16,943 nucleotides of DNA from Globomyces pollinis-pini (lineage: Eukaryota > Chytridiomycota > Chytridiomycetes > Rhizophydiales > Globomycetaceae): assembly GCA_025399215.1 (NCBI GenBank), contig MU621441.1:1-16943 (forward strand), read 5' to 3'. A model generated the notes under the pieces. The model saw only the letters and a list, made by a program, of their open reading frames with translations. It searched no databases and was not told where the DNA came from. Positions 1-16,943 of this stretch are shown piece by piece (within the stretch, counting starts at the first letter, position 1; each line of letters begins with the position of its first letter). Both the position numbers and the translations under genes were made by a program.

Positions 1-9
1 GCTCTAGCG

Positions 10-71
10 GTCCCAACATTGAATTGCATCCACTAGAGCAGTCCCAACATTTAGCTGCATCTACTAATTAA
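10..71. repeat. Two-copy direct repeat, ~31-nt unit
   Basis: The motif GTCCCAACATT followed by a GCATC block occurs at 10 and again at 41, with CTAGAGCA between the copies and a related GCTCTAGCG at the window edge. The array may begin outside the window. Confidence 0.6.
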
Positions 72-225
72 TTGATAAGAAAAGTGAGTGTAGATGAGTA
101 TCTATCTAGATCGCACGCCACACGCCACTAGAAAATCTTCTAGAACACAAACAAATTCAACTTACAGATCGAATTGAGATTAGAGATATTCAAGGTACTT
201 ATAACATACATGATAATCCAAAACC

Positions 226-248
226 AAAACTTTTGGACCAAAAGTTTT
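226..248. repeat. Near-perfect palindrome, 11-bp arms with a one-base centre
   Basis: AAAACTTTTGG (226-236) is followed by one A and then its exact reverse complement CCAAAAGTTTT (238-248). It could be a protein-binding palindrome or chance; no gene abuts it. Confidence 0.6.
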
Positions 249-491
249 CATTTTATTTTATAAACATGTTGTCATTATTCGTAAATCAATAATAAACGAT
301 GTATAAATGTTAATAGTCGTTATCTTGAGTTTGGACAATAGTAATGTTACCAGTGGTCGCGTAAAGTGATTTCACGAGTACAAAGGTAGATTGGTCTCAC
401 TTGAATAATATGTATTCTTGTTTATCTCCTTATGTTTTGAAAGTCAGAATGGCATTCAGTAAAAGAAACTCATTAAAAGGATTAAAGAATT

Positions 492-515
492 TTTAATAAA
501 CATCGTTTTATTAAA
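492..515. repeat. Small inverted repeat (9-bp arms, 6-nt loop)
   Basis: TTTAATAAA (492-500) pairs with TTTATTAAA (507-515) around the loop CATCGT. It is AT-only and lies next to the larger inverted repeat; no function is assigned. Confidence 0.45.
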
Positions 516-557
516 CGTTAACGACAAATTCACCTAAAGTAGTTTTATCACCACTGT

Positions 558-675
558 ATGTGTTACTGGGTATGACGGTTACTATACCTTGATTTTCATA
601 TTCCGCCAATACGAATAAATTGTATGCACGTAATGCGAAAATCAAGGTAAGGTAACCATAAACCCAGTAACACAT
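558..675. repeat. Imperfect ~40-bp inverted repeat, ~39-nt loop
   Basis: The arm at 558-597 (ATGTGTTACTGGG ... CCTTGATTTTC) is repeated in reverse complement at 637-675. The outer 13-14 bp and the inner 12-13 bp are perfect, with a few mismatches and small gaps between them. A transcript would fold into a long hairpin. It could be a decayed fold-back element or a hairpin RNA; no target-site duplication was established. Confidence 0.65.
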
Positions 676-679
676 ATTG

Positions 680-745
680 CCCAGCACCAGCACTATCCGC
701 ATCAACTATAGTCCCGAATAATCGTCCCAGCACCGACACTATTCC
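680..745. repeat. ~20-bp direct repeat
   Basis: CCCAGCACC followed by (A)GCACTATCC at 680-698 recurs as CCCAGCACCGACACTATTCC at 726-745. It sits directly beside the large inverted repeat and may belong to the same element. Confidence 0.45.
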
Positions 746-1157
746 ATGGTGATGGATATCTTGACATGGCGCGTTTCTTGAAACCAGGTATCTAGTTTTG
801 AGCTATATTTATAGTCCATTGTGCATGATGCATTCATTTGGATTGAGTTGTATGAATTTATGGTAGTTGACACCCTTTTAGGTTATTAAAGGATAAATTG
901 AAAGATGAAATGATTATGATTTTTAATTTCATCTGAATTTGTTTATTGTAATTGGTTGTAAAGTAAGGGTGTTAAATAGGTTGTGGTTATTAGGCTGTAA
1001 TGGGATGTGGTTAATAAGAAGGTAGGTTAAGTTTGGGTCTAGGGAGGGTTGTGGAGACACAAAGGACTTTCAAAAAACCAAAAAATAAATAAAATAAAAA
1101 TGTTTTTTTACATCCATTACGTATACAAAGATCCAAATGACTAAAATACAAGTGGAG

Positions 1158-4100
1158 TTACTGATTCAATTCCGCCTTCAAAGTCTTGATCACAGCTACA
1201 ATAACATCAAGTCGTTGATTGGTTCGTTCAGTCACCAAAAACAAAAACCACAAGATAATACAATTCATAAACATCAAGACCATTAGAATAACAATAGAGA
1301 GTACGAGATATTCTCGTGGTAGGGTACGAGTCCATTGGGTAAAGGTTTGGGTAGGAGTGACCACAATCGGTTTGGTTTCGGATTTAGGTTTGGATTGGGG
1401 TTGATCCGGTCCAGCCAATGTTTGATTACAAATCTTGTAGAGTTCATCATAGAGACTGGTGACGGTTTCATAGCCACTTTTCTCGGCCAAGGCTATGGTT
1501 GAGAAATGTAGAGTATTACCTTTAGGTACCGGATATTTCCCTTTACCACATACAATCTTGGTTTGAACATGAACTCGAGTCCGTGTGGATGTGCAAGCTG
1601 TATAACAGATCCGCAATAACGTCGACACACCGACATCAGCTACAAAAGCCTCCGAATGGAAACATACCCGATGAGGGGTGACATCATGTACATGGTCATT
1701 GGACGTATTGAGCATTGTTTTAGGAACTAGGGATTAAGATAGTCATGGTTACCAAACGGAATCCCATGTTTGAGTGGAACCAAATACTGTGCTTTGCGTT
1801 TCATCCCCACTTGGAGGTCTTTGAATGCCATACGGTATTGTGGATCCGAACATTGTGATAACGGTACCAAAGGGGCATCCTGTTCTTCTTTCTTGACAAA
1901 CTTGGAATACTCCAACTCTAACCAAAAATCAACCATGAGCTAAAATACCTGTCCATTTGGCAGCACCCGTGACGGTAAAGGTGGTGGAGAAGGTATTGGG
2001 CTGACTAGACACCGCAAACGTTTCAAGCCACAAAACAGCAATGGGGACATGAATCTCAGTCTCCAAGACCGTTTTGTAACCATCCTTTTCCAATTGAACA
2101 CATTCACACATCTGTTCAGCCCCCAATGGCGATTCAACAATAGAATCGATAAAATATTGAGTTAAATTTTGGTAAAATAAGGCTACACCTTCAATGGCGG
2201 ATTTCTCGGCCAAGGCTTTTGGTACTGGATATTTACCTTTACCAGTGAAAATCACCTTCATATAGGCTTTGAGTTGCGTTTGTGAGGGGGAGAGTTGCAC
2301 CAGACAAACATGGCATTGTGTGATGATACCCATGACTGGTAAATGTGCATCGGTAAAAACACAGAGCGTATCGTCATCACGATGAATGATCTACGATGAG
2401 TGATATACAGATACCTTGAACGATTCGATATTCTGTGCAGTTTTGGGGATAAATGGTAAACCATGGTTTAATGGGTTATTCCTGGTTGTTTTGCGTTCAT
2501 AACCTTCTTGGAGAGATGTCAGATCAGGATGATACATGCCATTCTCACGATGACCTAACGGTAACAGTTTATCCATTTCTGTAGGGTTATTGAGTACCCA
2601 TGGTCCGATTTCCAAATTCTGGACTTTTTCAGGACCAAGCAGGTAATTTGTAAATGTATTACCAGTCCCAGGGATGTTGAACCATTCGTTCCATAACGTA
2701 TCGATGGAGAATGGCAAGATGGATTCATGAACAGGTTTGAATTCATCTTTTTCGAAATGATGGTGTGAGTATCTAATACTTGGAGTAGGTTGTAAGGAAA
2801 TATGTTCATTAAGCCATACACAGAGTTCAGAATAGTATGCTTTAACACCATCAATAGTTGGTTTTTCCGCCAACGATTTTGGGACAGAATATTTACCATT
2901 ACCAGAAAATATAGCTTTAGCATATATTTTCATGGTGGTTTCAGATTCTTTAGATTCAAGACAGATATCCACGATGGTGATGACTCCAAGCATATCTAGA
3001 GTCGCCTCATTCACAAGGCAGATTTTATCCTTACTAACTGATTTAATGGTGATGGTTTCCACACTTTGAGCGGATTTTGGAACTTGAAGATTAGAGATGA
3101 AGATGATTACAAAATGGGATACCATGATTGAGGGCATTTGAACGACTGGTACGTCTTGTTAAACCCACCTTTAAGGATTCAAAAGTGGGTTCAAAATCAC
3201 CACCACCAGCTTGACTATCAGGTACTAAAACTTCTAATCCAGGATCACCTTCTGGTAACCAAGCACTCCATTCCAAATCTATCATCAAAACAATCTAGAA
3301 ATAAACCTTTAAGTTTTTGAGGTCCCAATAAGAATTTACTGAGGTTGCTAGCAGAGGAGGTGATACAAAACATTTCTTTCCATAAGATTGGTAATGTGAA
3401 AGGTAACGTTGTTTCAAAAACAAATTGAGATTCTGTATTGTTTCCACATTGACAATCCGGTACAGGTTCATCTTCAAGAAGGGTGTTGCCTTCGAGTACA
3501 GCAGGAGATGATATGATTTGTTGCAATGCGGCCGGTGCGGTATCTGTTACGGTAGATATTCTACGTCCAACGTCTGAAACAGAGTCTATTGTTAGCCATT
3601 CCGATTGAGTAGATATGAAGTATTTAGAAATTGTAGTAATATTCCATATATATAACTTATAGTGATACATTGTGTGTGTAATTATAAATTATAGTGATGT
3701 TTTGTACATAGTTTGTAGTGATATTTCGTATATAATATCTTGAGATGTTTTATATCATTTGTAATGATATTCCGTATATAAATTATAGTGATGTTTTATA
3801 TAATTTGTAATGATAATCCACATATAATATTTTGAGAATATTTAATGTGTATCAATTGAAATAATGTTTGTGAAATGTTTGGGTAAACAATACCTTTACG
3901 AGCGACATCGGTACTTGAACGATAATGAGAAGGTCTAGGAGAATCGGGCAAAGAGATGTTAGTCTCTGACCTAGAAAATGCCTTTTTGATATAAGCAAAA
4001 CCACTATTTTGTTTTTTGACTGAACTAGATTTCCGCCTGGTTAATATGGATAAATCATCTGAAGGTTTTGAAGCTCGATGTTGTTTTTGTATAGAAAAAC

Positions 4101-4810
4101 AAACATCACAAGTGTAATTTTCACATACACAAGGAGTGTTTGATAAATCTGGTCTACGTCTGAATAAACTTTGAGGCTAATGGTTAGGGGAGTGAAGGAG
4201 TACATCGACGACGGTAGACCATACTTTTGAGATGACTTCATAAGCTTCCTGTGGGGAATAGAATGAATCGAAATGGTACTAAGATATTAGTTTTTGTTTT
4301 TTGATTATGTGATGGTGATTAAGTTTTAATTTTATACCTCTATACAAGTATCTGAACGTTCTACAAAGACAGATATTGTACCAGATTGTAATAGTATGAT
4401 ATCTACTATATCTGAGAAATCAAAGATAGCTATTGACTTTAATGATTAAATTGATTTTAAATACTTTTCCAGGCCAATTTAATTTGAAGCATAAATGAAA
4501 TTCAGATATCCATAATTTTCCAGATTCTTTTTCTAGATTACATTTGAATACTTTTTTTGTTAGTAATATTTTTTGATACTTTGAAATAGTAATTCCCATT
4601 GAGGTATTGAAGGGAATAATTTCAAGAATTCTGATGATTTTTCTACACCTTTTTTTTTTTTAATTTTGTTTTAATACCTTGAGATAATAATAAGGTTGTT
4701 AAATGAATTTGTTTTGTTCTTTTTTGTATGATACGAGAATTACAAAAATCTATAAAAGGGATTGTAATTGGTAAAGGAGGAGGGGGAGGAACAATGAAAT
4801 TTGAATTCAT
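1158..4810 (-). CDS. GRAM - VASt x3 - transmembrane lipid (sterol) transfer protein, 13 exons
   Basis: Exons on the minus strand: 4810-4678, 4648-4580, 4550-4465, 4436-4338, 4278-4204, 4176-3894, 3585-3307, 3278-3111, 3082-2415, 2390-1949, 1917-1753, 1726-1520 and 1492-1158. Joined, they give 1002 codons with consistent phase. Residues ~46-150 form a GRAM domain (IFKCNLEKESGKLWISE, then YHFDSFYSPQEAYEVISKVW). Three VASt domains follow (~300-488, ~511-700, ~725-910), each with an L(N/K)HG(I/L)PF.PK block and a GKY(S/P)VPK.LAEK block. A single membrane helix lies at ~953-978 with a short tail. By family (Lam/GRAMD1) it anchors in the ER and moves sterol at contact sites; that role is inferred. 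Most of the twelve introns are 24-31 nt; the exceptions are 59 nt (4279-4337) and 308 nt (3586-3893). Exon 5 could instead begin after the CACAG at 4249, but the 59-nt choice restores the GRAM consensus. The start is the ATG at 4810. Confidence 0.85.
1493..1519 (-). other. 27-nt intron without a stop, in frame
   Basis: It begins GTAATACTC and ends TCTCAACCATAG on the minus strand. Left unspliced it adds nine residues inside the third VASt block (VPK|ALAEK). The other two VASt copies have no residues there, so I call it an intron although the frame stays open. Confidence 0.75.
2391..2414 (-). other. 24-nt intron, the shortest in the window
   Basis: It begins GTATCTG and ends ATCGTAG, which contains an in-frame stop. 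Removing it makes the second VASt domain match the first in spacing: 13 residues from the conserved E to the conserved C in both copies. Confidence 0.75.
3586..3893 (-). other. 308-nt intron of the GRAM/VASt gene
   Basis: The donor is GTATTG at 3893. The chosen acceptor follows GGCTAACAATAG at 3586, giving the required phase (split Asp codon). A later TTTCAG is an alternative acceptor. The intron carries a 47-nt tandem repeat, so it appears expanded compared with the 24-31-nt introns around it. Confidence 0.65.
3696..3836. repeat. Three tandem copies of a ~47-nt AT-rich unit
   Basis: Units start at 3696, 3744 and 3790, each with GATGTTTT followed by a TTTGTA(A/G)TGAT block and a (C/T)(G/A)TATATAA block. 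All lie inside the 308-nt intron. Confidence 0.7.
4177..4203 (-). other. 27-nt intron removing an in-frame TAG
   Basis: GTACTCC to CCCCTAACCATTAG, with the branch motif CTAAC. If it is not an intron, the GRAM gene has a premature stop just after its GRAM domain. Size, branch motif and phase all match the other introns. Confidence 0.7.
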
Positions 4811-4880
4811 TTTTTTTAGTTTGTGAATAAAGTAAGTTGTAGTTAATGAAGGGTTTGTTTAACCCTAATATGAATTTGGG

Positions 4881-4923
4881 GGTTAGTTAGGGTTCATTGT
4901 GAGTTAGGGTTAGTTAGGGTTCA
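4881..4923 (+). repeat. Degenerate telomere-like TTAGGG motifs
   Basis: TTAGTTAGGGTTCATT is followed by GAGTTAGGGTTAGTTAGGG. AACCCTAA lies just before, at 4861-4868. It is too short and mixed to be a telomere, and may be an interstitial relic or a Myb-type factor binding cluster. Confidence 0.45.
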
Positions 4924-5015
4924 TTCAACTACAAAGGAATTCATGGCTGTGTTAAAAGTGACTAACTTACCACTAACTAACTACTTACTAGTTATTAGTT
5001 ACTAGTTACTAGTAA

Positions 5016-5040
5016 TAAAATAAAATAAAATAAAATAAAA
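5016..5040. repeat. (TAAAA)5 microsatellite
   Basis: Five exact TAAAA units, seen directly. Confidence 0.9.
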
Positions 5041-5318
5041 TATTATTAAGGGTGGTGATTGTAAGTAATTTTAGGGTGGTTTTAAAAAAAAAACTAGTAA
5101 ACAAACAACTATCCATTACCACTCTACTAATTAATTAATTAACTATTAACTAATAACAAGTTACTAATAATAACTAATTAGTAACTAAAAAAAAAGTCAC
5201 TTTGGTAATCATCTTACGATTATTCTTCCACTCCCTTTTTTTTGTATCACTTACAACGCCGACCTCCCTCTTCTTGCCACTTTCATTTTTGCTTCACCTC
5301 ATTCAATACAAGTTATCA

Positions 5319-7498
5319 ATGACAAAACCTAATACCATACTATCATTACCACTCGATGCTATATTTCAAAGAGTACCGGGTATTTGGACTATATCAACTT
5401 TTATCTTTTGGTTCATTGGTCCTGTTTATGCTCCTGTCTCTTTCGCTATTTACTACTTAATAATGCATCTACTCTTCTTGGCAAATAACATTAGAACTTG
5501 CTATGGTGCTTGGCAAGGTTCAATAATGGCTAAAATTCATTCAAAAACTAATTGGGCAGAAAAGTATTGCAAAACTACTGGTGCTTCTTACCCTAATGAT
5601 ACTAGACATGACCTCCCTTTTGATGCCGTTAAACATGTCATCATTATCCCTCAATACAAAGAAGATTTAGGAACAATGTCGGATACTCTGGATACTTTAG
5701 CTTCTCATTCTTCAGCTATCACTCATTATAAGGTATCAATTCACTTTCCTCTTTATCATTAAAAAAACTTTTTTTCAAAATAACAATAACTAACAATCAT
5801 TGACATGTACCAATAACTGACAATCATTGTCATCTACCAATAATTTAAAACAATGAATTCATTGTCTTAAATATTCATTTATATACATTTACTTCAAATG
5901 ATCCAATTCACTATAATCATTCACTCTTGTTTCCATTCACGAATGATCCAATTCACTCTCAACCACTTTGTTTTTAATCAACATTCAAAAAGTGCTGGAC
6001 TAACAACTTTTAGATCTGTTTAGCCATGGAAGAATCGGAAAAAGAAGCTCCAGCAAAAGCACATCAACTAATTCAAAAATATCAATCCCTCTTTCATGAT
6101 ATCACTTTCACCCTTCATCCCTCTAATAGACCTGGTGAATGTAAAGGAAAAGGAAGTAACGTTGCTTGGGCCGCTAGGGAAATGGTTAGACAAGCTGGTG
6201 GTCCTCGTGTAGAAGAAGTCTTTACTATCATGGATGCCGATACCGCTTTTGCTCAAGATTACTTTGCTGCTGTCTCTTACCATTATGCTGTTGCTACTCC
6301 TGAAGAACGAAATTTATCAATGTATTGTCCTACCACTCTCTTTGATAGGTAATTTCAATCATTTTAACCCTTCAGAAATGCAGATCAAATTCCTTTCCTA
6401 GTTAGAGCTGCTGATATAAGTTGGTCTATTGCTGTCATGTCCAATTTATATGATGGTTGTGCTGCTAAATTCCCTTGTTCTGCTTATTCAATTCCAATGA
6501 CCTTGGCTGCTTCCGTAGGTTTTTGGGATACAAATGCTCAAGGAATGGCCGAAGATTTTCATATGGCTTTGAAATGTTTTTATTCTTCAAATGGACATTT
6601 CAAAATCACTGGTATCTATTCACCTGCTTCACAATGCAATATTCAAGGTGATAGTTATTTTGGTACAATTCAAGATCGATTTACTCAAGCTAAAAGACAC
6701 ATGTGGGCATCTTTGGATGTTGGTTATGCTTTAAGACGTGCATTTTACAATATCCTCGCTCCTTCTTTTGATGCCCCTGATGATAAAATTCAACAAATTC
6801 CAATCGTTGCTCCTTATGAACCATTCTTTTTTATATCAAAGTTGATTCCAATTCTTCATAAAGTGGCTGAAGCTCATTTACTAATGGGAAATATTCTATT
6901 AATGATTACTTTTACCATCTTTATCATTCCAGCTGGAGAAAATCCAACTTTTATATGGTCATTACTTACTACTTCATCCGTACATCCATTTCTAGCATAC
7001 ATTGCAGATATTTGTAACTATTTACGAATCATCGTTGCCATCCCAACAATCATGACACTCTATTATTACGATATTTACCAGAAATGGTGTTCAAGTGAAC
7101 GATGGATATTATCTTTACAAGAACAACTTCATCCTGGAACTGGTCAAGGAGTACAACCACTAGGAAAACGTTCACATCTCCAAGCTCGACGTTCATTACT
7201 CAACGTATTAGATTACCTCGCCATTCCACTCTGTGGTTACGCCTTTCTTTCTATCCCACAAGTGATTAACCAAATCAAACAACTATACACTTCCGAGATT
7301 GTGTACATTGTGGCTGGTAAACCTACCGTCCCACTTGATACCGTGACTGTCGAAACCGAACCATTACTATACACCAATCCATTTGTGGATGATAAACCGG
7401 CCACCACACGAGGGGATTCTGGATTTTATGATTTTGAAGAACCTATTGATCCTCAAGCTCGATTTTCCCCTTCCATGTGGAAAACTATACAAAATTGA
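5319..7498 (+). CDS. Multispanning family-2 glycosyltransferase, 3 exons
   Basis: Exons 5319-5732, 6014-6348 and 6376-7498 join to 623 codons plus stop. Two N-terminal hydrophobic segments (~21-57) precede a GT-A catalytic region: IIIPQYKE (early strand), GKGSN (~183), a DAD metal/nucleotide-sugar motif in TIMDADTAF (Asp212/Asp214), an acceptor-side ED in GMAEDFHM (~309-310) and QAKRHMW (354-360), which resembles the QxxRW motif of processive GT2 enzymes. Several membrane spans follow (~400-550). The fold and motifs say GT2, acting in a membrane, with the active site in the cytosol by family analogy. Donor sugar and product cannot be read from sequence. It is not a recognisable chitin synthase (no QRRRW). 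The second intron (6349-6375) is 27 nt; the Arg codon is split across it. Confidence 0.85.
5788..5841 (+). repeat. 27-nt direct repeat, two tandem copies
   Basis: AACTAACAATCATTGACATG... (5788-5814) is followed immediately by a copy with three changes (5815-5841), inside the 281-nt intron. Confidence 0.75.
5897..5957 (+). repeat. 16-bp exact direct repeat
   Basis: AATGATCCAATTCACT occurs at 5897-5912 and 5942-5957, also inside the 281-nt intron. Confidence 0.8.
6349..6375 (+). other. 27-nt intron in the glycosyltransferase gene
   Basis: GTAATTTC to TTTTAACCCTTCAG. Splicing joins TLFDR to NADQIPFLVRAAD in a continuous GT2 core; without it the frame ends at a TAA within the intron. This is one of the clearest ultrashort introns here. 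Confidence 0.9.
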
Positions 7499-7798
7499 GT
7501 TGCTTGACTTTTTTTTTTCCCGTACACTCGTAATATAATTATCCTCATGAATTTTATTTGTTTATTGCTTGGTGATTTATGTTTTTACATTACTACACTA
7601 AGTGAACTCGGTACCAATACGTAACCAACTCAAGATGGATCAAGTAGTTTGATTGCAATATCCTTATATACTGATGTACACCATTCATTTATTATTTTGA
7701 ATTTTATTGTTAATATAGTGTTGATTATACTGTTGAAGAAAAAACACGCGATTGGATGTGTGTGGGTTGAGTGATAAACAATAGATTTTTTGCAAACA

Positions 7799-7981
7799 AT
7801 GACAGAACTTTGGGATAATGTGAAACGAAGATCACGATCGTTTTCGATTTCAGGGTAACGGTATCATCCTCAGATTTGTAGATTTACCAAACCGCTTTCA
7901 TCAACTTTACGTAACCAACTCGAGATGGATCAAGTAGTGAGATTACAATATCCTTATATACTGATGTACATCGTTCATTGA
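7799..7981 (+). pseudogene. Duplicated 5' end of the Chibby gene, copy 1 (truncated ORF)
   Basis: Exon 1 copy at 7799-7854 starts MTELWDNVKRR; a 27-nt intron (7855-7881) is intact; the exon 2 copy follows the real gene for ~20 residues, then diverges and stops at 7979-7981, giving a 51-residue product. It lacks the Chibby core and coiled coil. Its exon 1 and donor are intact, so it could serve as an alternative first exon spliced to the acceptor at 8445. Confidence 0.7.
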
Positions 7982-8085
7982 TTATTTTTGAATTTTATTG
8001 TCATTGTAGTGTTGATTATATTGTTGAAAAAAACGCGATAGTTTGTGTGTGATTTGAATGATAAACAATAGATTTTTTGCAAACA

Positions 8086-8229
8086 ATGACAGAAATTTGG
8101 GATAATGTGAAACGAAGATCACGATCGTTTTCGATATCAGGGTAACGACATCATCCTCAGATTTGTAGATTTACCAAACCAGTTTCATCAATTTTACGTA
8201 ACCAACTCGAGATGTATCAAGTAGTTTGA
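8086..8229 (+). pseudogene. Duplicated 5' end of the Chibby gene, copy 2 (truncated ORF)
   Basis: Exon 1 copy at 8086-8141 (MTEIWDNVKRR, one Leu-to-Ile change), intron 8142-8168 (27 nt), then 19 codons of exon 2 similarity and a TGA at 8227-8229. It is truncated before the conserved Chibby region. As with copy 1, the start codon and splice donor are intact. Confidence 0.7.
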
Positions 8230-8362
8230 TTATACTGATGTACACCATTCATTTACTATTTTTGAATTTTATTGTCATTATAGTGTTGATTATACTGTTG
8301 AAGAAAAAAACGCGATAGTTTGTGTGTGAGTTGAGTGATAAACAATAGATTTTTTGCAAACA

Positions 8363-8825
8363 ATGACAGAACTTTGGGATAATGTGAAACGAAGATCACG
8401 ATCGTTTTCGATATCAGGGTAACGGCATCATCCTCAGATTTGTAGATTTACCAAACCAATTTCATCGGTACCAATACGTAATCAACTCAAGATGGACCAA
8501 GGCATTCGATTACAACTAGGTGAAACATCACTATTATTCCGTGAAGGCAAATGGATCACAGGTACCATAACATTTATTCCACATTATAAAATCCCATGAA
8601 ATCATCAAGATAATGATATTAATTGTTGTAGAGAGTGAAAAGAATGAAATGTTGATTCGAGAATTGGAAGAACGTAATCGAATGTTGATGAATGAGAATG
8701 AATTGTTGGGATTTAAATTAGGATTGGTTTTAGATATGTTGGCATTATCGAAATTAGATTTAGTACAAATGGTTTTAGCAAATGATAACAAATCTATTGA
8801 TCCCAAATCAATTCATAATAAATGA
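8363..8825 (+). CDS. Chibby-family small coiled-coil protein, 3 exons
   Basis: Exons 8363-8418, 8446-8561 and 8632-8825 join to 121 codons, close to the ~126 residues of animal Chibby. Introns are 27 nt (8419-8445) and 70 nt (8562-8631). After a basic Ser/Arg N-terminus (KRRSRSFSIS), the family signature appears: LGETSLLFREGKWITE (~49-64), then a leucine-rich coiled coil, LEERNRMLMNENELLGFKLG, ending in VLDMLA. In animals Chibby acts at basal bodies/membranes and binds beta-catenin; in this organism the role is unknown and neither function should be assumed. The ATG chosen is the one repeated intact in the upstream tandem copies. An internal Met (~34) is a possible alternative start. Strong match by motif order and length. 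Confidence 0.8.
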
Positions 8826-9384
8826 TTTTTTAATTGAGGATTTTGAAATGGATTTGGTATCACTTTTAATTGACGTTTTTTTATTGACGTGTCTGATATT
8901 CATTCGATGAACTGGCTATTTTACACACTGGATTTGAATTCATTATTAAGCATTGTATTGATGATCGAAATCGTATCGCTTTGAGATACCTCAACTTGTC
9001 TTAAAAACAATTTAGAAAGGTGTACCTTTTTTTTGGATAAACTAAAGGTCAAATTGGTTTGAAATATATGCAAGACTATGTACCATAGGAAACTGCCATA
9101 AACAAGTTCATGAAATTCTTATAAAAATGACTGGTTTTTGTACTCTTCATTTCGCTTCATCGATTTTGATTTGCAAACGGTAATCATAGATCGAAGTTAC
9201 ACCAAAAGCTATGAATTTCCCTTTGTGAAGTTGTAACATGAACAATTTCCAATGATTTGTGTATTAAAGTAATACGCTCTCAGAATCATGGTAAAAATAT
9301 AGATGTTATTGAGAAATTAAATAAAGAATCCTAGTACCAATATATTGAAAAAGAACAACGAGGTGAATGATAGATAGTACATAA
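8826..9384. other. Gap between convergent genes, no supported gene
   Basis: This is the 3' flank of two converging genes. I saw only short interrupted frames, including a plus-strand stretch around 8930-9010 with a run of coding-like residues but many stops. No RNA gene or repeat was recognised. Confidence 0.4.
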
Positions 9385-9775
9385 TTACTTTTTTGATTTC
9401 CAAGACCAAACATCAAACATAGTAGATAAAGAAGAAGTACTTTCCAAACTTTTCATTGTTTCTTTATCCAGTAAATGATATGTTCTAGGAGTAGGTAAAT
9501 AACTTTTCATTTGTGATTGACTCGATAATGGATACTAATGATTAGAATATGAATATGAATACTTTTTTCTCTATATTATTTTCAATCATATCAGAGTATT
9601 GATGATACCATTGATTCATTAAATTAATATCTAAATTAGGATTGGTTCTAAATTCTGTTTGAATTTTTGTTTTTAAATGTTGTTGAAAATTGAATTCTCG
9701 TTTGTCTTGTTTAGGCCATCTTTGAGTTAATCTTAATAATTGTTTGTATGATTTTAGTACTTGACTTTTATCCAT
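9385..9775 (-). CDS. UQCC2/Cbp6-like (LYR-like) mitochondrial assembly factor, 2 exons
   Basis: Exons 9775-9563 and 9534-9385 join to 120 residues. The 28-nt intron (9535-9562) runs from GTATTC to CTAATCATTAG. The N-terminus, SYKQLLRLTQRWPKQDKREF, then HLKTKIQTEFR, then an acidic/aromatic helix leading to KKYP, follows the order seen in UQCC2 (YR..L....WP ... L...V...FR ... KYP), an assembly factor for cytochrome bc1 that works with cytochrome b translation. It also resembles the wider LYR-motif fold. The length (120 versus ~126) agrees. The start is the ATG at 9775; the open frame extends three codons upstream only through a TTG. No clear targeting presequence is visible. The family call is made from memory of motifs and is moderate. 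Confidence 0.6.
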
Positions 9776-9819
9776 TGAATTCAATTGGGTTCAACTTTTT
9801 TTTTTATTTTTTTCTTGTT

Positions 9820-9839
9820 ATACCTACCATAGTAGGTAT
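9820..9839. repeat. Hairpin, 8-bp stem and 4-nt loop
   Basis: ATACCTAC, loop CATA, GTAGGTAT, in the 114-bp gap between two minus-strand genes, next to a T-rich run (9796-9813). It could be a 3' processing or promoter element; its role is unknown. Confidence 0.5.
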
Positions 9840-9840
9840 C

Positions 9841-9902
9841 TTTATATTTCAAATCATATTAAAACAATAGAAAAACAATCTTTTATATTTCAAACCATAT
9901 TA
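9841..9902. repeat. 21-bp direct repeat overlapping the BSD2-like stop codon
   Basis: TTTATATTTCAAATCATATT(A) at 9841-9861 recurs with one mismatch at 9882-9902. The second copy includes the last four codons and the stop of the minus-strand membrane-protein gene, so the first copy is probably a duplicated piece of its 3' end. Confidence 0.7.
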
Positions 9903-10675
9903 GCACTAATTGAGGTCTCTAATTCTTTCATCAACCTAGTCAGTTGATAGAATTTAAATGGACTACGAACAAGTAAAAATAATCCAAGAATCATTATAAT
10001 AATCGAAGTATTGGTAATTCCTTGTATTTTATCCAATTCTTCACTGGTGAGAACTTGTTGACTATCCTTATAACCTAACACAGTTTTATAAGTTTCTTGT
10101 TTAATTAACCATCCAAATCTAATGATAGTGATTCCTAACCCTGTTTGTGAACCTATCATTATATATTTCAATACTTTACCCAAAACAGATGCATGATCAT
10201 TTCCAATAAGTATAGTTGTAAAAAATCCTATTAATCCAAATACAATCGATATAATTCCACTAGTGAAGAATGAAAAGTATGATCCAATTGCCAATCCTAT
10301 AATAAATTAACATATTCTCATCCAACCTTCAATGAGAAGATTTCCATCTTCATCCATACATTCTTCAAAGTAATTGGGACATTCTGACCATTCAGATAAT
10401 TCATCATAACATGGAAGTTCACCATCGTCCAACGCGAATTCTTTGGTTGGTTTAACAGACATGTTTGAAAATACTCCTTCTTGTTCATTATGAATGATTC
10501 GTTTTGGTGTGACTAACTTGATTTTGATGATATCCTATGGTTATTAATTCAATCAGATTTAGATTACTTCCAATTGAATGTGAAATTCGTCATCAACCAT
10601 CGTTCTCTCAGATTGGAATGTTTCTGGATCATCCACGTTATGGTGAAGTATATCAAGTTCATTTGCATCCATCAT
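9890..10675 (-). CDS. BSD2: Bsd2/Ndfip-type membrane adaptor for Rsp5/Nedd4 ubiquitin ligase, 3 exons
   Basis: Exons 10675-10568, 10534-10327 and 10296-9890 join to 240 residues. Introns are 33 nt (10535-10567) and 30 nt (10297-10326). The N-terminal cytosolic part contains EGVFSNMSVKP, a hallmark of Bsd2-like proteins, and LPCYDE (76-81) where relatives carry PPxY-type ligase-binding motifs. Hydrophobic segments follow: SYFSFFTSGIISIVFGLIGF, GSQTGLGITIIRFGW and IIIMILGLFLLVRSPFKFY, matching the family's GF..T....A...G..AGLG..LI.+G pattern. Bsd2/Ndfip recruits Nedd4-class ligases to Golgi/endosomal cargo. The loop between spans 2 and 3 is longer than in yeast Bsd2. The last exon begins in an open frame with TTG only, so the upstream exons are needed. 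The start is the first of two adjacent ATGs. Confidence 0.75.
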
Positions 10676-10926
10676 TAGAAAATAGATTGAAATGAACAGT
10701 GTAATTTATTTACAAATGTTAGTTTTGTTTGTATCAATATTTGGGACAAGACAATGTAAAGCGTGACTGTGACTATTGTAATCTTTCAACTTACTGTTTA
10801 ACGTTTATCCAATCAGTAATATACTTTTACTATACTCTCTTAATGATTAATTGGCTATTGGTGACCCAAAGTTTACATGTAAATTCATACTTTATTTTTT
10901 TAACATTCTAACATATTTAGTTCAAC

Positions 10927-11694
10927 TTAGTTGGCAACAATCCAAGAATATAGTGAACCTACAGAAGCATAGACACCAGGATATCCAGCTAAAGCACAGC
11001 CTCTTCCAAAAGAGGTGAGTCCAGTGACAGTCGCGGTTCCATCCTCGTTACTAACAAATGCTGGACCACCAGAATCTCCTTGACATGTATCTTTGCCTCC
11101 TTCTGGGAATCCGGCACAGAAAGTTGTTGAAGTCAAATTTTGTAGTTGTGGGTAAGCTGTGAAGCAGGCTTGATTTGAAGTAATTGGAACAACTGTCTCC
11201 AACATAGTTAATGGAGCAGATCCACCGGAAGAGACAGTTCCCCAACCAGCAATCTTCAATGATTGGCCTTCTTGTGCTAAAGAACCATCATCTAATTTGG
11301 CAAATTGTGTTGGTACAGGTCCACTGAGAACTTCAACATCCCAAATAGCAACATCATATCCACTTCGAGATGCGGAGGTATAATTTGGATGAATAGTGAA
11401 TTTGTTTACTTTCAAAGTGGTTGCATTTTCGGATTCAACGGTAGTGTTAAAATTATAACGATGATAATATGCCAAAAAGTTTTCTGGTACTTGATTTACA
11501 GTACAATGAGCGGCAGTGACAATCTTGTTTGGACTAATGAGAGATCCACCACAGAAACCACGTCCGTTTTTACGAAGAGCAACTAACCATGGATAAACAT
11601 CTGGAGATCCAACTGGAGTTCCACCGACAATTGGTTTGTCAGCTGGGAGAGCCAAGATAGCGGAAGCAAGGACAGAGTAGCCGATTAATTTCAT
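10927..11694 (-). CDS. Secreted trypsin (S1A serine protease), intronless
   Basis: The single 255-residue frame is complete. A signal peptide (~1-16) and a very short propeptide precede the mature IVGG at ~22, whose new N-terminus would form the activating salt bridge. The catalytic triad is His63 (TAAHC), Asp114 (YDVAIW) and Ser208 (GDSGGP). Asp202, six residues before Ser208 in KDTCQGDSGGP, is the S1-pocket aspartate that gives cleavage after Lys/Arg. Six cysteines are placed for three disulfides (48/64, 176/193, 204/233). With a propeptide of only a few residues it probably needs little or no separate activator. Trypsins of this kind are abundant in insect- and animal-associated fungi; host degradation is inference. 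A TATAAATG lies 40-48 bp upstream of the ATG. Confidence 0.95.
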   Translation of the reverse strand: MKLIGYSVLASAILALPADKPIVGGTPVGSPDVYPWLVALRKNGRGFCGGSLISPNKIVTAAHCTVNQVPENFLAYYHRYNFNTTVESENATTLKVNKFTIHPNYTSASRSGYDVAIWDVEVLSGPVPTQFAKLDDGSLAQEGQSLKIAGWGTVSSGGSAPLTMLETVVPITSNQACFTAYPQLQNLTSTTFCAGFPEGGKDTCQGDSGGPAFVSNEDGTATVTGLTSFGRGCALAGYPGVYASVGSLYSWIVAN

Positions 11695-12659
11695 TTATAA
11701 TTGTTTTGATGACTTGACTGTGGAAATAACAAGGCATTTATAGCATTTCTGGTGACCAAATGTGATTTCAAAAGAGTTCTAGCAGCATGGTCTTAAGCAT
11801 GGATCACAAAACAGGGTGTTGTGATACAGAATAGTTGGTAAAGCCTTTCAGCTTCATTCACTTCTTAATTGTAGAACAGTTGTGATAGGGTTTTAATTGG
11901 ATATCTCCTTCTTGAAAAAGCACTGGTTGAACTCTTTTCCACTTTGTTGAATGATACTAATTTGACTCTATAGTGTGACTATCGGTAACTTTTGGGATTG
12001 GTCATACCACTAACCAAGTCAAACACCATATGGTCAACGTAATTACCCATGCTGTTGGACATATTCTTCCGCTTTATTGGCCATTTTTGGATACTGGTGT
12101 CACGATGAAATTTGAAACAACGTTGTTTGTCTTTCATGTTTCTTTGATGGAATGCATTGATAGATATTCTAGATTTTGGAGGGTGGTATTTGCTTGGTTT
12201 CACTAAATTAAATCTTTGCGAACGTTAAATTAGTTAGTCTACTATAAGATGCTAATTCTTGAAATTGTTAACACAATAGTAAGATGAATATTACAATAAC
12301 TTCTCAGTTAATAACTATTCAGCTGATGATAACTACTTTATTCAATTGTGTCTCAAACCTATTCAAAATGATAAATTTACTAATCAATCGATCAACTTGA
12401 AGACTAATGCCAATGTGATGGACTCACTGGCGTACATTGTAGTATATGTACTAAATGATGATGTGTGCTGATTTCTGTTTGGGTGATATTGTTTTTTGAT
12501 GTTTACTAAGTGTTGTGTGCACTTTTAGGTTGTGATGCATTTAAAGGTGCTAGGAATATTCAAAGTCCAGTAGTTTGCAAATCAAAACATATGAACTAAT
12601 GCGATGTATCTGTTAAAATTTAATATTTCTTACACAAATAGAACCTAGCTTTCTGATAT
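11695..12659. other. Upstream region of the trypsin gene; no supported gene
   Basis: It includes the trypsin promoter. A 74-codon minus-strand frame (11979-12203) begins only with GTG and shows no domain, so I do not call it. I see no repeats, tRNA or array in the rest. Confidence 0.45.
11735..11742 (-). promoter_or_regulatory. TATA-box candidate for the trypsin gene
   Basis: TATAAATG on the minus strand, ending 40 bases before the trypsin ATG at 11694, with no other ATG in frame between. The spacing leaves a very short 5' UTR. Confidence 0.45.
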
Positions 12660-12971
12660 CTAATACAATTCAGATTCCATAATATCTGTAATATCAGGTG
12701 TTTTATCATGTTTACCCTCTTTCAATAACTCACTAATCCATCCTGCTAAAAGTGATACTTCCTGTTTAGCTTCAGGAAGAAAATGCCAAGAAAATATTTT
12801 AAGATCATTGGAAAATAAATATCTAATAGTTGGAAAATTACTATGAACCGAATATCTCGGATCTAGACATATCTGAGGTAGGCAAGTGCTGAATTTAATT
12901 TTTAATTTTTGCATCTCTGCTACAGACTGGAGCTTCAGCTGCATTGTTTTGGAACCGTATGGTGCATCCAT
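12660..12971 (-). CDS. Hypothetical protein or C-terminal gene fragment
   Basis: I do not recognise this 103-residue frame. Composition looks like real coding in its second half: FSWHFLPEAKQEVSLLAGWI then ELLKEGK and a short acidic tail ending MESELY, consistent with an amphipathic C-terminal helix of a larger enzyme. The ATG at 12971 begins MDAPYGSKTMQLKL. Just upstream, a GT..AG segment of 25 nt (donor GTTGTG, acceptor TTGTCCAG) could join a few more codons starting at an ATG near 13004, but this is weak. It may be a truncated relic. No signal peptide or membrane span. Confidence 0.4.
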   Translation of the reverse strand: MDAPYGSKTMQLKLQSVAEMQKLKIKFSTCLPQICLDPRYSVHSNFPTIRYLFSNDLKIFSWHFLPEAKQEVSLLAGWISELLKEGKHDKTPDITDIMESELY

Positions 12972-13256
12972 GAAAACTGGACAAGAGATTTAAATCACAA
13001 CTAAATTGTTTCATTAAAATGAGGATCTTCAAGGCATAATCTCACTTATTTAATGATGAAAATGATGAATTGGAATGTTACAGGGAGTAAACGCATACTT
13101 ATATGGTTCTTCCTTGCTCAAAATTATGTTAATTAGCAGTTAAGAAATTGGATACTCTATTCCAACTATTTCATAATGGCATTTTGCTGAAGAGAAACTC
13201 AAGTTCGGATTTTTCTCATTACCATTCCTAGACGTGGACATTGTATCAAACCACGT

Positions 13257-14091
13257 ATGAAGGTATACAGAACACAGAAACACTTTTTAATATTTCTTTC
13301 GTTTTTGTTCACCATCAGCGTTTGTTGCTCTCAAATCAAGTTCGAATATGATCTCACCTATTCACCCATTGTTCTATTTGGCAAACATGAAGATGTCTGT
13401 GAATGGTAAAATTAGACCAGTAATCAATGGAACCTTACTTCGTGACCCTACCGTGCCTTTAGTAAACTACACATTAGTAGAACCAGATTATGTTATCAAA
13501 TACGACGAAGGCTTTACGTACTCATATCGCCCAGACAACAACCTGACTTATATAACCTATCACCCATTCTCACATACCACTGAAGCGCTACCCCAAAGTG
13601 TAGCATATGACCTTACTGCAAATACAAAAATGATGGGTTATGCAATTGGTATTAATACAACCAACTTAGACAAAAAGAGGTCTATAGGGTTTAGTGCTTA
13701 CGCTCACTCCAAAATCGACCCAGAGTATAGCAGAGGACAGCAGCAAGACGAGATGTATTGGGATTTTGATACTTACTGGCATTCAATCACCTTACGTGTT
13801 GCTACACCCGCATGTGGATCACACGGATTTGAATGGCAAAAATGGGAAGAGAGTAATCAATTCTGTCCTATTTCGAAGTGCTATCAAGTTGGCGTTGGCT
13901 ACTGGAGTAATCAAGATGATTGTTCTGTTGGCACGGACGCTGCTTACTTACGAGCAGACCTATGGTTTCAGTTAAGCAATTCGTGGTTTGGTTGTCCGAA
14001 CAATAGCTGTAGCCAACAAGGTTATTGCCGTGAAGGTTGTGTAAAAGTCACTGCTGGAGATAGTTATGTCCCTCAACATCAAAGTCTATAA
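13257..14091 (+). CDS. Unrecognised secreted protein with Cys-containing C-terminus; N-terminal frame change
   Basis: Two open frames must be joined. The first, from the ATG at 13257, encodes a clear signal peptide (FLIFLSFLFTISVCCSQ) and ~30 mature residues, then hits a stop at 13407-13409. The second is open from 13348 to 14091 and gives ~225 further residues, Tyr/Asn-rich with several NxT/S sites (NGT, NYT, NLT, NTT) and eight cysteines in the last ~100 residues, ending CPNNSCSQQGYCREGC. The junction needs removal of 3n+1 bases. Two 22-nt GT..AG segments (13371-13392 and 13399-13420) would do it, but neither has a good donor or branch, so a frameshift or sequence error is possible. I recognise no family; a secreted or surface role is inferred from the signal peptide. 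Confidence 0.6.
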
Positions 14092-14799
14092 AGATTCTAG
14101 TTTATCTAATAAAATAATTACCGTATCAACTGATAATTAACATAAAATAAGAAAAGAAATTATCCAAAAGCGCAAAATCCAATGATTGATCCAAGAATTT
14201 AGATTTAAAATTTCGAAGTTGGGGGCATAATTCAGTACAATCTTTTTTGTAAGTGACTTACAAAGATATCGGTAGTAGGAAATTAATCCTAAAATCCTCT
14301 TGGTCTTACTATTTCTACTTGTGGAATTACATATATCACTTTGTCATCTTTCCAAATCACTGGTAGAATCTAATGCTGTCCAAAAACAATTATGAGATGT
14401 TGACGAAGATTTTTCTGTATCTCCTTATGATGGCGATAAAGTTTTTAGATTGCGATCAACTGTCTCTGTTGTTTAAAATCATTTGAACAACTGCAATAAA
14501 CCAAGAAATTTTTAAATTTCTTAACAACCAAAGAAACACAAGAAGATAAAACAAATCAAAATATAAGTAGGTCCAAAAGAGGAAAGTACTTAGTCAGAAG
14601 AGTATCAGAGGATTAGAATAAACCAACTGTAGTTATGTCTAGAATTTGATATTTTACAACTAGAGTTGTAATAGATAGGTTCCTGTTACCCAGTTAAGAT
14701 CATTCAGAATCTTAACTTTGGTTCTTATTACATATCAAATTCAATTTACAACATTTGTAGGACAATCAATGGCTTTATTTATTTGAGTGCAAATGGTGA
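14092..14799. other. Gap between convergent genes, with a possible gene relic on the minus strand
   Basis: Between about 14225 and 14470 the minus strand encodes coding-like pieces (HHKEIQKNLRQHLIIVFGQH, then LPVIWKDDKVIYVIPQVEIV), interrupted by several stops not removable by convincing introns. This may be a decayed gene; I cannot name it. The remainder is AT-rich with nothing recognised. Confidence 0.3.
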
Positions 14800-15351
14800 T
14801 TAGCATTGATATTTGCCGATTAATGTGTCCAACAGTGATCCATCAAGAGCATCGATTGTACGCTGCCCAGGAACACTCGCGACACCTTTTAATGAAGCAG
14901 TGATGTCAATCTTCACCTTCGAAATAGGCTTTTTATGATAAGCAGTTCTTTTAACAGTAATTTCATCAGATTCAATGTAATCATCAGAGAATGGACCAAC
15001 AATGACCTTTTTTACAGTTTGGAATACAAGACCATTTGAATACCCATAATTGGAAACACGTTTGGATTTCAGGTTATCATCCAAAGAAGCAAATCCTCGA
15101 TAATCAAACCTGGTGTTGACACGCGAACATCTTTTTGGAAAGATAATGTTCAATTCAGCAATACATTTTGCACGATCATCGTCTGCTGTGACAATAAAGC
15201 TGTCGAAAATGACAGTAAATGTTCTTTTATCATCTGTGAGGGCAATGGATGCTGATTCACAAGCTGAGCCTTTTAGAGATACACTTTGGAATTGGACTTT
15301 ATCTTGACAAAGTGCAAGTGTGAAAAGCTGTGTTAAATATGCAATCTTCAT
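14800..15351 (-). CDS. Secreted DUF4360-like protein
   Basis: From the ATG at 15351 the protein is 183 residues and starts with a signal peptide (MKIAYLTQLFTLALC). The open frame extends 22 codons further to an ATG at 15417, but that would place a polar stretch before the signal, so I prefer 15351. The mature part follows the DUF4360 order: SLKGSACESASIALTDDKRT, FTVIFDSFIV, a cysteine before ELNIIFPK, and RFDYRGFASL, then a beta-rich C-terminus ending in Cys. The family is found in secreted fungal and bacterial proteins and has no established activity. No introns. The nearest upstream gene on the same strand ends 355 bp away; they look independent. Confidence 0.7.
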   Translation of the reverse strand: MKIAYLTQLFTLALCQDKVQFQSVSLKGSACESASIALTDDKRTFTVIFDSFIVTADDDRAKCIAELNIIFPKRCSRVNTRFDYRGFASLDDNLKSKRVSNYGYSNGLVFQTVKKVIVGPFSDDYIESDEITVKRTAYHKKPISKVKIDITASLKGVASVPGQRTIDALDGSLLDTLIGKYQC

Positions 15352-15706
15352 TGAATTCAAATGGAGTGGGATTTTATTATTTAATTGCGCGTTTATTGAT
15401 ATATCCACGATAGACATTATTTACTTCATGTGCAACGAACAGTTAGTATAAAGATGATTTTAGACAAGTTACTAGATGATCGAAATTTTGACTTCCACTT
15501 GTTGCTGTTTAGTAAAGTACTCCAAGTTGGCATGTGTGGGGATTCTGGATGTGGAATATTTTATTAATTTAACCATTTCAAGTAATCAGAATTATCTGTT
15601 GGTGCTTTAACAAGTGCCAAAATATACTACTACGTATAAACAGAACAATAATACCACAAAAAATAAACTCATTTTCAAAGATATTATGATTTATTTTGAA
15701 GTATCA
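15352..15706. other. Intergenic, promoter side of the DUF4360-like gene
   Basis: This 355-bp AT-rich gap lies between two minus-strand genes. It must hold the promoter of the downstream gene and the 3' UTR of the synthetase. Open frames here are overlaps from the neighbours; no repeat or RNA gene seen. Confidence 0.45.
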
Positions 15707-16943
15707 TTACAAGTCTTTGATTTTGTCGAGGAATTTAATAACCGATTTGTCATCATTAATATCATATGCATTCGCATTTCCACCAACTGCAAATTGGACA
15801 TCCAATGACCACGTTTTAACATACTTCCCGGAATTGATTTGATTTTGTAATTTATGGAATATAAAAGATGTTCCAGGCAATCCCAATAGTACATCTACAG
15901 GTCCAATACTTTCCAGATCCTGCAGAAAACTAGTATATTCTTTGCGATCATCTTGGATAAGTCTTCGGAAAGTGGATGGTGTTTTGACTTTAACAAGTAT
16001 CAGCGATATAGTGTAGTTGGTTTGGTCAAATAAATCAAGCAGTTTGTTGCAAAATTCATGGTAGTTGGTTAGTTTGGCAGTGTACAAAATAGCAATTCTA
16101 ACTCTTGTCGACACTGGTATAATATCTTCTTTTTCTTTCATTGAATCGACCAAAGTGTATGTAGCGAGAAGTGCATCATGAAGATATGAAGCAAAGTAAC
16201 TATCTTTCGGAATTTCGTGTCCAAACTCATGTTGAATATTTTTAGAGTATTGACGTTCATAACGCTCTAGCATGGAGTTTCCGATTCTGTCTTCTTCGAG
16301 TTTTCCTGAAAAATGTAATGAGAGTTCTGTTAATTTCTTAGAACAATCCAATTCTTGAACATCTAATGGTACTCCCGAAGCTAAAATACTGATACTCCAA
16401 AGCTTTTCAACTTTTCTTTCTGATGCTAATCTATCAAGAAGCTCAACCAATGATGCGCCTTGAGAGAAACCAAATATAGCATCAACTCTTTCGAACTTTT
16501 GTAATCTCTCATAAACCTTTAAACTTTTTTCATAAGCATTATCTGCGTTAATCCACCAATCATAATGTTCCATTCCAGTTGAGCTTAAGTCTAACAAATT
16601 AATTACAAACAAAATACCGAAATTTTTTGAAGGGACATCTCCTTGCATAAAGACAAATTGAATATCTTTTTCGCAAGCTTTAGTAATTGCTGACATTTGA
16701 TACTCGAAAATAGTATTGTTTTGAGATTGACCATGGAAACAAACTACCACTAACCTATCATCTCTTACTATTTGACTCTGTATTGTGTTGGTATAATTCA
16801 CTTTCGAGTCCAACTCTGCCATACTTTTAAGAATTGGGGATTTGAAAATCGAACTAGTTGAAATATCTATGGAAGAATCTTTGCATCGCTTCATTAATTG
16901 GATTGCTGAAATAGAATCACCACCTAACTCAAAGAATGATGAA
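15707..16943 (-). CDS. 3' end of an NRPS/PKS-type synthetase: carrier domain, FSH hydrolase, degenerate FSH-like domain (partial)
   Basis: The frame enters from the right edge and ends at 15707; 411 residues are visible. It opens with SSFFELGGDSISAIQL, the phosphopantetheine site of a carrier (T/ACP) domain, with the attachment Ser at residue 10 of the fragment. Next (~65-250) comes an FSH-family alpha/beta hydrolase: VVVCFHGQSQNN, nucleophile elbow GFSQGAS (Ser~160), HFSGKLEED and HEFGHEIP (His~242). LovG, a stand-alone FSH enzyme, releases a polyketide from its synthase, so this domain is probably a fused release thioesterase (inference). The final ~130 residues repeat the FSH layout (VRIAILYTAKL..., VDVLLGLPGTSF, KTWSLDVQF) but lack the nucleophile Ser. 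Upstream adenylation, condensation or ketosynthase domains lie outside the window, so NRPS versus PKS is undecided. No introns in the visible part. Confidence 0.85.
   Translation of the reverse strand, partial: SSFFELGGDSISAIQLMKRCKDSSIDISTSSIFKSPILKSMAELDSKVNYTNTIQSQIVRDDRLVVVCFHGQSQNNTIFEYQMSAITKACEKDIQFVFMQGDVPSKNFGILFVINLLDLSSTGMEHYDWWINADNAYEKSLKVYERLQKFERVDAIFGFSQGASLVELLDRLASERKVEKLWSISILASGVPLDVQELDCSKKLTELSLHFSGKLEEDRIGNSMLERYERQYSKNIQHEFGHEIPKDSYFASYLHDALLATYTLVDSMKEKEDIIPVSTRVRIAILYTAKLTNYHEFCNKLLDLFDQTNYTISLILVKVKTPSTFRRLIQDDRKEYTSFLQDLESIGPVDVLLGLPGTSFIFHKLQNQINSGKYVKTWSLDVQFAVGGNANAYDINDDKSVIKFLDKIKDL

Follow-up and report, generated by a model that had tools for sequence, protein, structure and literature searches.

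Genomes with ultrashort introns are already known from ciliates, mikrocytids, and nucleomorphs. In Paramecium and Nyctotherus, such introns measure about 25 nucleotides (nt) (PMC5014332; PMC2633312), and in Stentor coeruleus 15–16 nt, with the branch adenosine (branch A) at position 10–11 and no strong branch consensus (PMC9505925). Introns of 16–17 nt have been reported for mikrocytids and of 18–21 nt for chlorarachniophyte nucleomorphs (PMC10245619), and one 23-nt intron is on record for Trichomonas. Among fungi, some introns of Cryptococcus neoformans fall in the 20–40-nt bin (PMC11913375), with a mean of 63 bp (PMC8476143), while the introns of Blastocladiella emersonii span 55–333 nt, mostly 60–79 nt (PMC2773782). 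Here we analyze a window of 16,943 nt (contig MU621441.1, positions 1–16,943, Globomyces pollinis-pini, assembly GCA_025399215.1) from an 18.55-megabase draft assembly of 459 contigs, in which five genes are interrupted by GT..AG segments of 24–33 nt. We consider it highly probable that these segments are introns of the major (U2-type) spliceosome, and that introns of 24–35 nt are the commonest class found in this organism, probably a flagellated fungus. The basis is sequence evidence: position, length, GT-AG ends, branch enrichment, protein restoration, recurrence in 18 genes and tubulin, and machinery genes.

The short introns of this genome resemble those of Paramecium and Nyctotherus in length and in forming a narrow class of spliceosomal introns (here 24–35 nt); however, only ultra-short introns are reported for these two (PMC5014332), whereas introns of 59–320 nt coexist with the short ones here, and the lineage differs. 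As in Stentor, tiny introns occur together with largely standard spliceosomal parts; unlike those of Stentor, they are about 29 nt long, with branch A near position 20 and clear motif enrichment. Many short introns of narrow size range are a feature shared with mikrocytids and nucleomorphs, which are, however, reduced intracellular or remnant genomes, whereas the present one comprises 18.5 megabases and has numerous kinase genes as well as flagellar genes and an intact SF1 gene. The genome of C. neoformans is likewise a fungal genome with some introns below 40 nt, but here introns below 36 nt form the main class found. Canonical junctions are common to this genome and that of B. emersonii, a flagellated fungus whose introns are usually more than twice as long as those described here. 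Introns of about 24–35 nt are only about half as long as is usual in fungi; no fungus whose main intron class lies below 36 nt was found in the open-licence literature searched, which is not proof of absence. The present case is thus set apart by its lineage and its retained normal signals.

All 15 ultrashort segments named in the original prediction were located in the window, at the sizes stated there (24–33 nt). Their claimed dominance in the five genes held in that they account for 15 of the 19 introns, but four longer introns (59, 70, 281, and 320 nt) had been omitted (Table 1). Joining the frames across the GT..AG segments restored the proteins, as had been proposed: Pfam matched the GRAM (3.3e-07 after intron removal), Glyco_trans_2_3, Chibby, UQCC2_CBP6, and NEDD4_Bsd2 models. 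Three junctions (4579, 4464, and 6349) lie inside Pfam matches, and that at 9562 lies within the UQCC2_CBP6-matched stretch. Once the six introns in the downstream part of the GRAM gene are removed, a single open frame runs from 3594 to 1158 and encodes three similar modules. In the Pfam search, these C-terminal modules (1158–3594) gave no match over the cut-off, and they possibly represent an unnamed domain family; the VASt label previously attached to the gene was not borne out, the spliced protein giving no VASt match in the same database.

The modules offer an internal comparison, as module 2 lacks introns at the sites that are interrupted in modules 1 and 3. Six junctions of the GRAM gene (3306, 3110, 2414, 1948, 1752, and 1519) are comparable with a sibling module; those at 3306, 2414, and 1948 were compared by eye in translation, and those at 3110, 1752, and 1519 were tested formally. 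In the formal test, stop-free excisions of 0 or 12–44 nt with any boundary, starting no more than 14 nt from the proposed donor, were scored against module 2 (597, 412, and 513 excisions, respectively). Without any GT-AG assumption, the best lengths were 28, 26, and 27 nt. The GT..AG excision was tied best for the 26- and 27-nt introns and ranked second for the 28-nt intron (79 versus 82, one base off).

Table 1. Genes and introns of the window, with the support for each.
Feature	Position	Strand	Size	Branch	Support or remark
GRAM-domain gene	1158..4810	-			three diverged C-terminal modules; C-terminal hydrophobic segment; start codon inferred
GRAM-gene intron	4649..4677	-	29 nt	weak, A-rich	GT..AG, frame only
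GRAM-gene intron	4551..4579	-	29 nt	CTAAC	within GRAM match
GRAM-gene intron	4437..4464	-	28 nt	TTAAT	within GRAM match
GRAM-gene longer intron	4279..4337	-	59 nt	CTAAT	within GRAM match
GRAM-gene intron	4177..4203	-	27 nt	CTAAC	frame restoration
GRAM-gene longer intron	3574..3893	-	320 nt		frame restoration; candidate acceptors 3574 or 3586
GRAM-gene intron	3279..3306	-	28 nt		spliced LGPQKLKDLEW resembles module 2 LGPEKVQNLEI, by eye
GRAM-gene intron	3083..3110	-	28 nt	CTAAT	28 nt best in boundary-free comparison with intronless module 2
GRAM-gene intron	2391..2414	-	24 nt (set minimum)	CTCAT	module 1 uninterrupted there, by eye
GRAM-gene intron	1918..1948	-	31 nt		frame restoration and module likeness, by eye
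GRAM-gene intron	1727..1752	-	26 nt	TTAAT	boundary-free excision against module 2 gives 26
GRAM-gene intron	1493..1519	-	27 nt	CTCAA	boundary-free excision against module 2 gives 27; multiple of three without in-frame stop
Family-2 glycosyltransferase gene	5319..7498	+	623 amino acids spliced		Pfam Glyco_trans_2_3 7.9e-15
Glycosyltransferase longer intron	5733..6013	+	281 nt	CTAAC	only one of six acceptor combinations with a single terminal stop
Glycosyltransferase intron	6349..6375	+	27 nt	TTAAC	within Glyco_trans_2_3 match
Chibby gene	8363..8825	+			Pfam Chibby 8.1e-14
Chibby intron	8419..8445	+	27 nt	weak	frame only; Pfam match starts at junction
Chibby longer intron	8562..8631	+	70 nt		within Chibby match
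UQCC2/CBP6-like gene	9385..9775	-			Pfam UQCC2_CBP6 8.7e-08; ends by eye
UQCC2-like intron	9535..9562	-	28 nt	CTAAT	junction after residue 71, inside match residues 10–81
NEDD4/Bsd2 (Ndfip) family gene	9890..10675	-			Pfam NEDD4_Bsd2 1.8e-14
Bsd2-like intron	10535..10567	-	33 nt	TTAAT	frame restoration
Bsd2-like intron	10297..10326	-	30 nt	TTAAT	frame restoration; domain starts right after

The same kind of intron recurs elsewhere in the assembly. A curated set of 56 introns was assembled from 18 genes, namely the window genes, Prp8, SF1, and 11 kinase genes, with the tubulin intron kept outside it. With the cut made at 36 nt, 52 of the 56 introns measure 24–35 nt (mean 28.7, standard deviation 2.1) and four are longer. 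For Prp8, the part analyzed was aligned with splicing to a human guide sequence, which gave 12 introns of 30, 33, 30, 29, 62 (or 29), 28, 28, 31, 28, 32, 30, and 27 nt. The lengths of 11 of them did not change when the GT-AG rule was dropped; the exception was the fifth, which went from 62 to 56 nt and was entered in the curated set in its alternative 29-nt reading. The spliced residues 1–1856 align over their whole length to residues 61–1919 of the solved human hPrp8, as judged from the alignment limits and roughly the initial quarter of the top-scoring alignment. SF1 has six introns of 25–31 nt, one of which was sized at 53 nt by the gene finder and entered as 29 nt on inspection. Alpha-tubulin has one 28-nt intron, the same with and without the GT-AG rule and with the guide covered over all 451 residues; the gene finder called it at 58 nt. 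In the U2AF65-like gene, a gap of about 120 nt separates neighbouring exons.

The 11 kinase genes contributed 19 kept introns of 25–35 nt, and all four kinases submitted to Pfam matched Pkinase over almost the full model length. In a hand check of 17 author-picked pairs of adjacent kinase exons in different frames, the gap-corrected length was 26–31 nt in 13 and 43, 46, 68, and 392 nt in the others. In a PAK-like kinase cluster on contig C17 (at about 92–103 kilobases), the three genes read (L001, L003, and the first L045 gene) each carry an ultrashort intron at guide position 106 of the kinase domain, and kinase L005 on contig C34 has one at this position too. A separate observation concerns L013, a Ser/Thr-rich protein encoded in two tandem copies with a 26-nt intron each, the branch motif differing by one base between them (CTAAT or CTAAC).

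The donor of the 24–35-nt introns is mostly GTA, and the branch is YTNAY-like. YTRAY occurs in 31 of the 52 short introns, compared with 8.6 in shuffled sequences (maximum 19) and seven in the reverse-complement control, and CTAAY in 12, compared with 1.8 (maximum 7). The predicted distance of about 19–21 nt from donor to branch A agrees with the 51 introns that have a good branch score, where the median is 20 nt (quartiles 19–21); branch A is followed by 8 nt (quartiles 7–10), which leaves about 6 nt between it and the AG. The segment between donor and branch contains 45% T and 31% A. The geometry is not fixed, contrary to what had been suggested, as both segments vary, each with r = 0.58 against intron length, and the 59–320-nt introns of the same genes share similar donor and branch motifs. 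Because of this variation and coexistence, the geometry looks tight rather than fixed, and the machinery seems to accept a range of lengths instead of being locked to one size. Intron definition would be a plausible reading.

Gene-finder output was used just for controls and rough sampling, introns being capped at 60 nt in the retrained model and in the sampling. In a first pass over 250 kilobases, without a splice-site model and with a flat length prior, 13 GT-AG introns of 24–33 nt were called, versus 2–4 for eight control dinucleotide pairs, and GT-AG calls above 60 nt showed no excess over the control pairs. A simpler codon model gave 21 versus 5–9 for seven control pairs, and a retrained model, partly circular in being trained on earlier GT-AG predictions, gave 36 versus 0–12 for 24 control pairs. 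Ten proteins were chosen by the author out of 36 listed for a domain check; in seven, an over-cut-off Pfam domain spans at least one junction, and in one, a sub-cut-off WD40 match does so, while the remaining two comprise one protein without a Pfam match and one with its junction between two domains. Settings that admitted introns of up to 400 nt or long genes were rejected, as exons were absorbed into false long introns. A surplus of even lengths in the output was likewise discarded, being absent from the curated set (23 even, 29 odd).

Several points weigh against the proposed interpretation. Five of the 15 window introns (4677, 4203, 8419, 10567, and 10326) are indicated by frame restoration and splice signals only. 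The GT-AG ends found in 56 of the 56 curated introns are partly due to selection, and the loose branch score, reached by 51 of the 52 short introns against a shuffled mean of 30 (maximum 41), takes the best 5-mer of each intron and so overstates the motif. Seven of the 26 GT-AG kinase calls were dropped, so any estimate of the ultrashort share across the genome carries a bias. Locus L004 accounted for two of the dropped calls and L044 and L046 for one apiece (lying past the domain or uncertain); L045 lost one call that leapt from one tandem gene to another, and L043 lost two, one of them uncertain and the other coinciding with the L007 site. Nor is the ultrashort share free of bias in the sampling of 20 stretches of 10 kilobases, in which 52 of 63 predicted introns measured 24–33 nt, as the gene finder retrieves only four of 29 curated short introns; because of this low retrieval, the actual number of introns in these stretches is likely higher than predicted. 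The U1 and U6 small nuclear RNAs (snRNAs) were not found by a family search, which is a weak negative, since the method found none in control genomes either. In addition, RED was not found in the genome search, a result too weak to claim its loss.

Three other explanations of the segments were weighed. The one that survives best, although we judge it very unlikely, is that some segments, mainly stop-free ones whose length is a multiple of three, stay in the mRNA and are translated or passed over by bypassing ribosomes. Three of the 15 introns of known phase whose length is a multiple of three contain no in-frame stop and could be read through (shuffled mean 4.1); however, the majority of the segments shift the frame or contain stops and carry splice signals, and the extra residues are absent from the intronless sibling module. 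In Paramecium, introns of this length class without stops are in shortage; such a shortage is not detectable here, with three against 4.1 expected and n = 15. Removal at the DNA level, of the kind known for ciliates and their short internal eliminated sequences, would account for the similar lengths and precise excision, but these sequences have TA at both ends, whereas all 56 curated introns have GT and AG; together with branch motifs above shuffles and with the same lengths in boundary-free alignments (Prp8 and tubulin), this makes the idea hardly credible. Scarcely more can be said for assembly or sequencing errors that break frames and are joined by chance, since indels in a draft of 459 contigs might explain the frame breaks alone but would not add 24–35-nt GT..AG segments with a consistently placed branch motif, the same kind of segment occurs in Prp8, SF1, tubulin, and kinases, and the control dinucleotide pairs lack the length peak. 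We infer that the ultrashort segments would be removed by splicing, and that one spliceosome would remove both these and the 59–320-nt introns.

A search for components of this machinery recovered U2 snRNA (135.4 bits), including its GTAGTA stretch, which presumably pairs with the branch. The loss of SF1, raised in the original prediction as a point to check, is unsupported, an intact SF1 gene matching the SF1-HH, KH, and zinc-knuckle models being present. For U2AF65, exons matching the model are present, none of them above the curated cut-off, and a loss of this protein is unsupported. A U6 pattern with one mismatch allowed was not found in the genome, which is a weak test; a looser pattern gave 11 hits, among them two U6-like sites with one mismatch, versus two for the reversed control, and this result is ambiguous. 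As for the host, Chitin_synth_1 had ten matches, nine of them above the cut-off (best 1.3e-74), and a radial-spoke gene was matched in the genome. Together with Chibby, these genes suggest a flagellated (zoosporic) fungus. Flagellar and chitin synthase genes are known from more than one group, and it is possible but unlikely that the introns are as described while the host is some other flagellated protist with chitin synthase, for instance an oomycete; the bit scores of Prp8 against solved chains favour neither reading.

Some further features of the window were recorded. Upstream of and into the Chibby gene, positions 7799–8445 hold three tandem similar copies (ATG at 7799, 8086, and 8363), each with the Chibby first exon and a 27-nt intron-like stretch; by eye, the full Chibby frame is entered from the last copy only. 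The UQCC2/CBP6-like protein also exceeds the cut-off of a LYR model in the Pfam search. Short TTAGGG-like runs lie at 4880–4920 and 5071, contig-internal, in the interval between the GRAM and glycosyltransferase genes. Two genes that adjoin the intron-bearing ones are single open frames, a trypsin gene at 10927–11694 (Trypsin, 1.3e-47) and a DUF4360 gene at 14800–15420 (4.7e-18). An open frame of 266 amino acids at 13291–14091, with a near-terminal cysteine-rich part, had no match in the Pfam search.

U2-type splicing of these introns would be ordinary in kind and would proceed at a compressed geometry, with about 20 nt from donor to branch. The human requirement for this distance is about 50 nt, and a B complex without structural change has been estimated to need 52 nt (PMC6692369). 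At about 20 nt, less than half of that estimate, the extended U6/5' splice site and U2/branch helices known from the human B complex could not both form without remodelling; because no greater distance is available, the helices would be shorter or formed sequentially, and assembly might proceed via trimmed helices or sequential binding of U1 and U2. The approximately 6 nt between branch A and the AG would be too short for a normal U2AF65 pyrimidine tract, and for this reason pyrimidine recognition may occur upstream of the branch, the T-rich donor–branch segment being a possible site, or may be dispensable. SPF45 takes the place of U2AF in those short human introns whose tracts are truncated (PMC8363638).

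These introns bear on annotation as well as on mechanism. A pan-eukaryotic survey of minor introns left out introns below 30 bp in all species (PMC10639083). Because 35 of the 52 curated short introns are shorter than 30 nt, any survey or annotation that applies this threshold would lose most of these introns and break gene models. A more far-reaching proposal, which we make tentatively and regard as possible but unlikely, is that a donor-to-branch distance of about 20 nt is the default here and is handled by a spliceosome that has retained U2, SF1, a highly conserved Prp8, and a U2AF65-like protein but perhaps not RED. If this were true, short introns would not be dealt with in general through the Smu1/RED bridge, and it would be peripheral factors, not the catalytic core, that fix how short the donor-to-branch distance can become. 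As an independent case, a probable fungus that has branch motifs and an intact SF1 would allow the donor–branch limit to be tested by comparison with the fungal and human spliceosomes, both of which are well studied.

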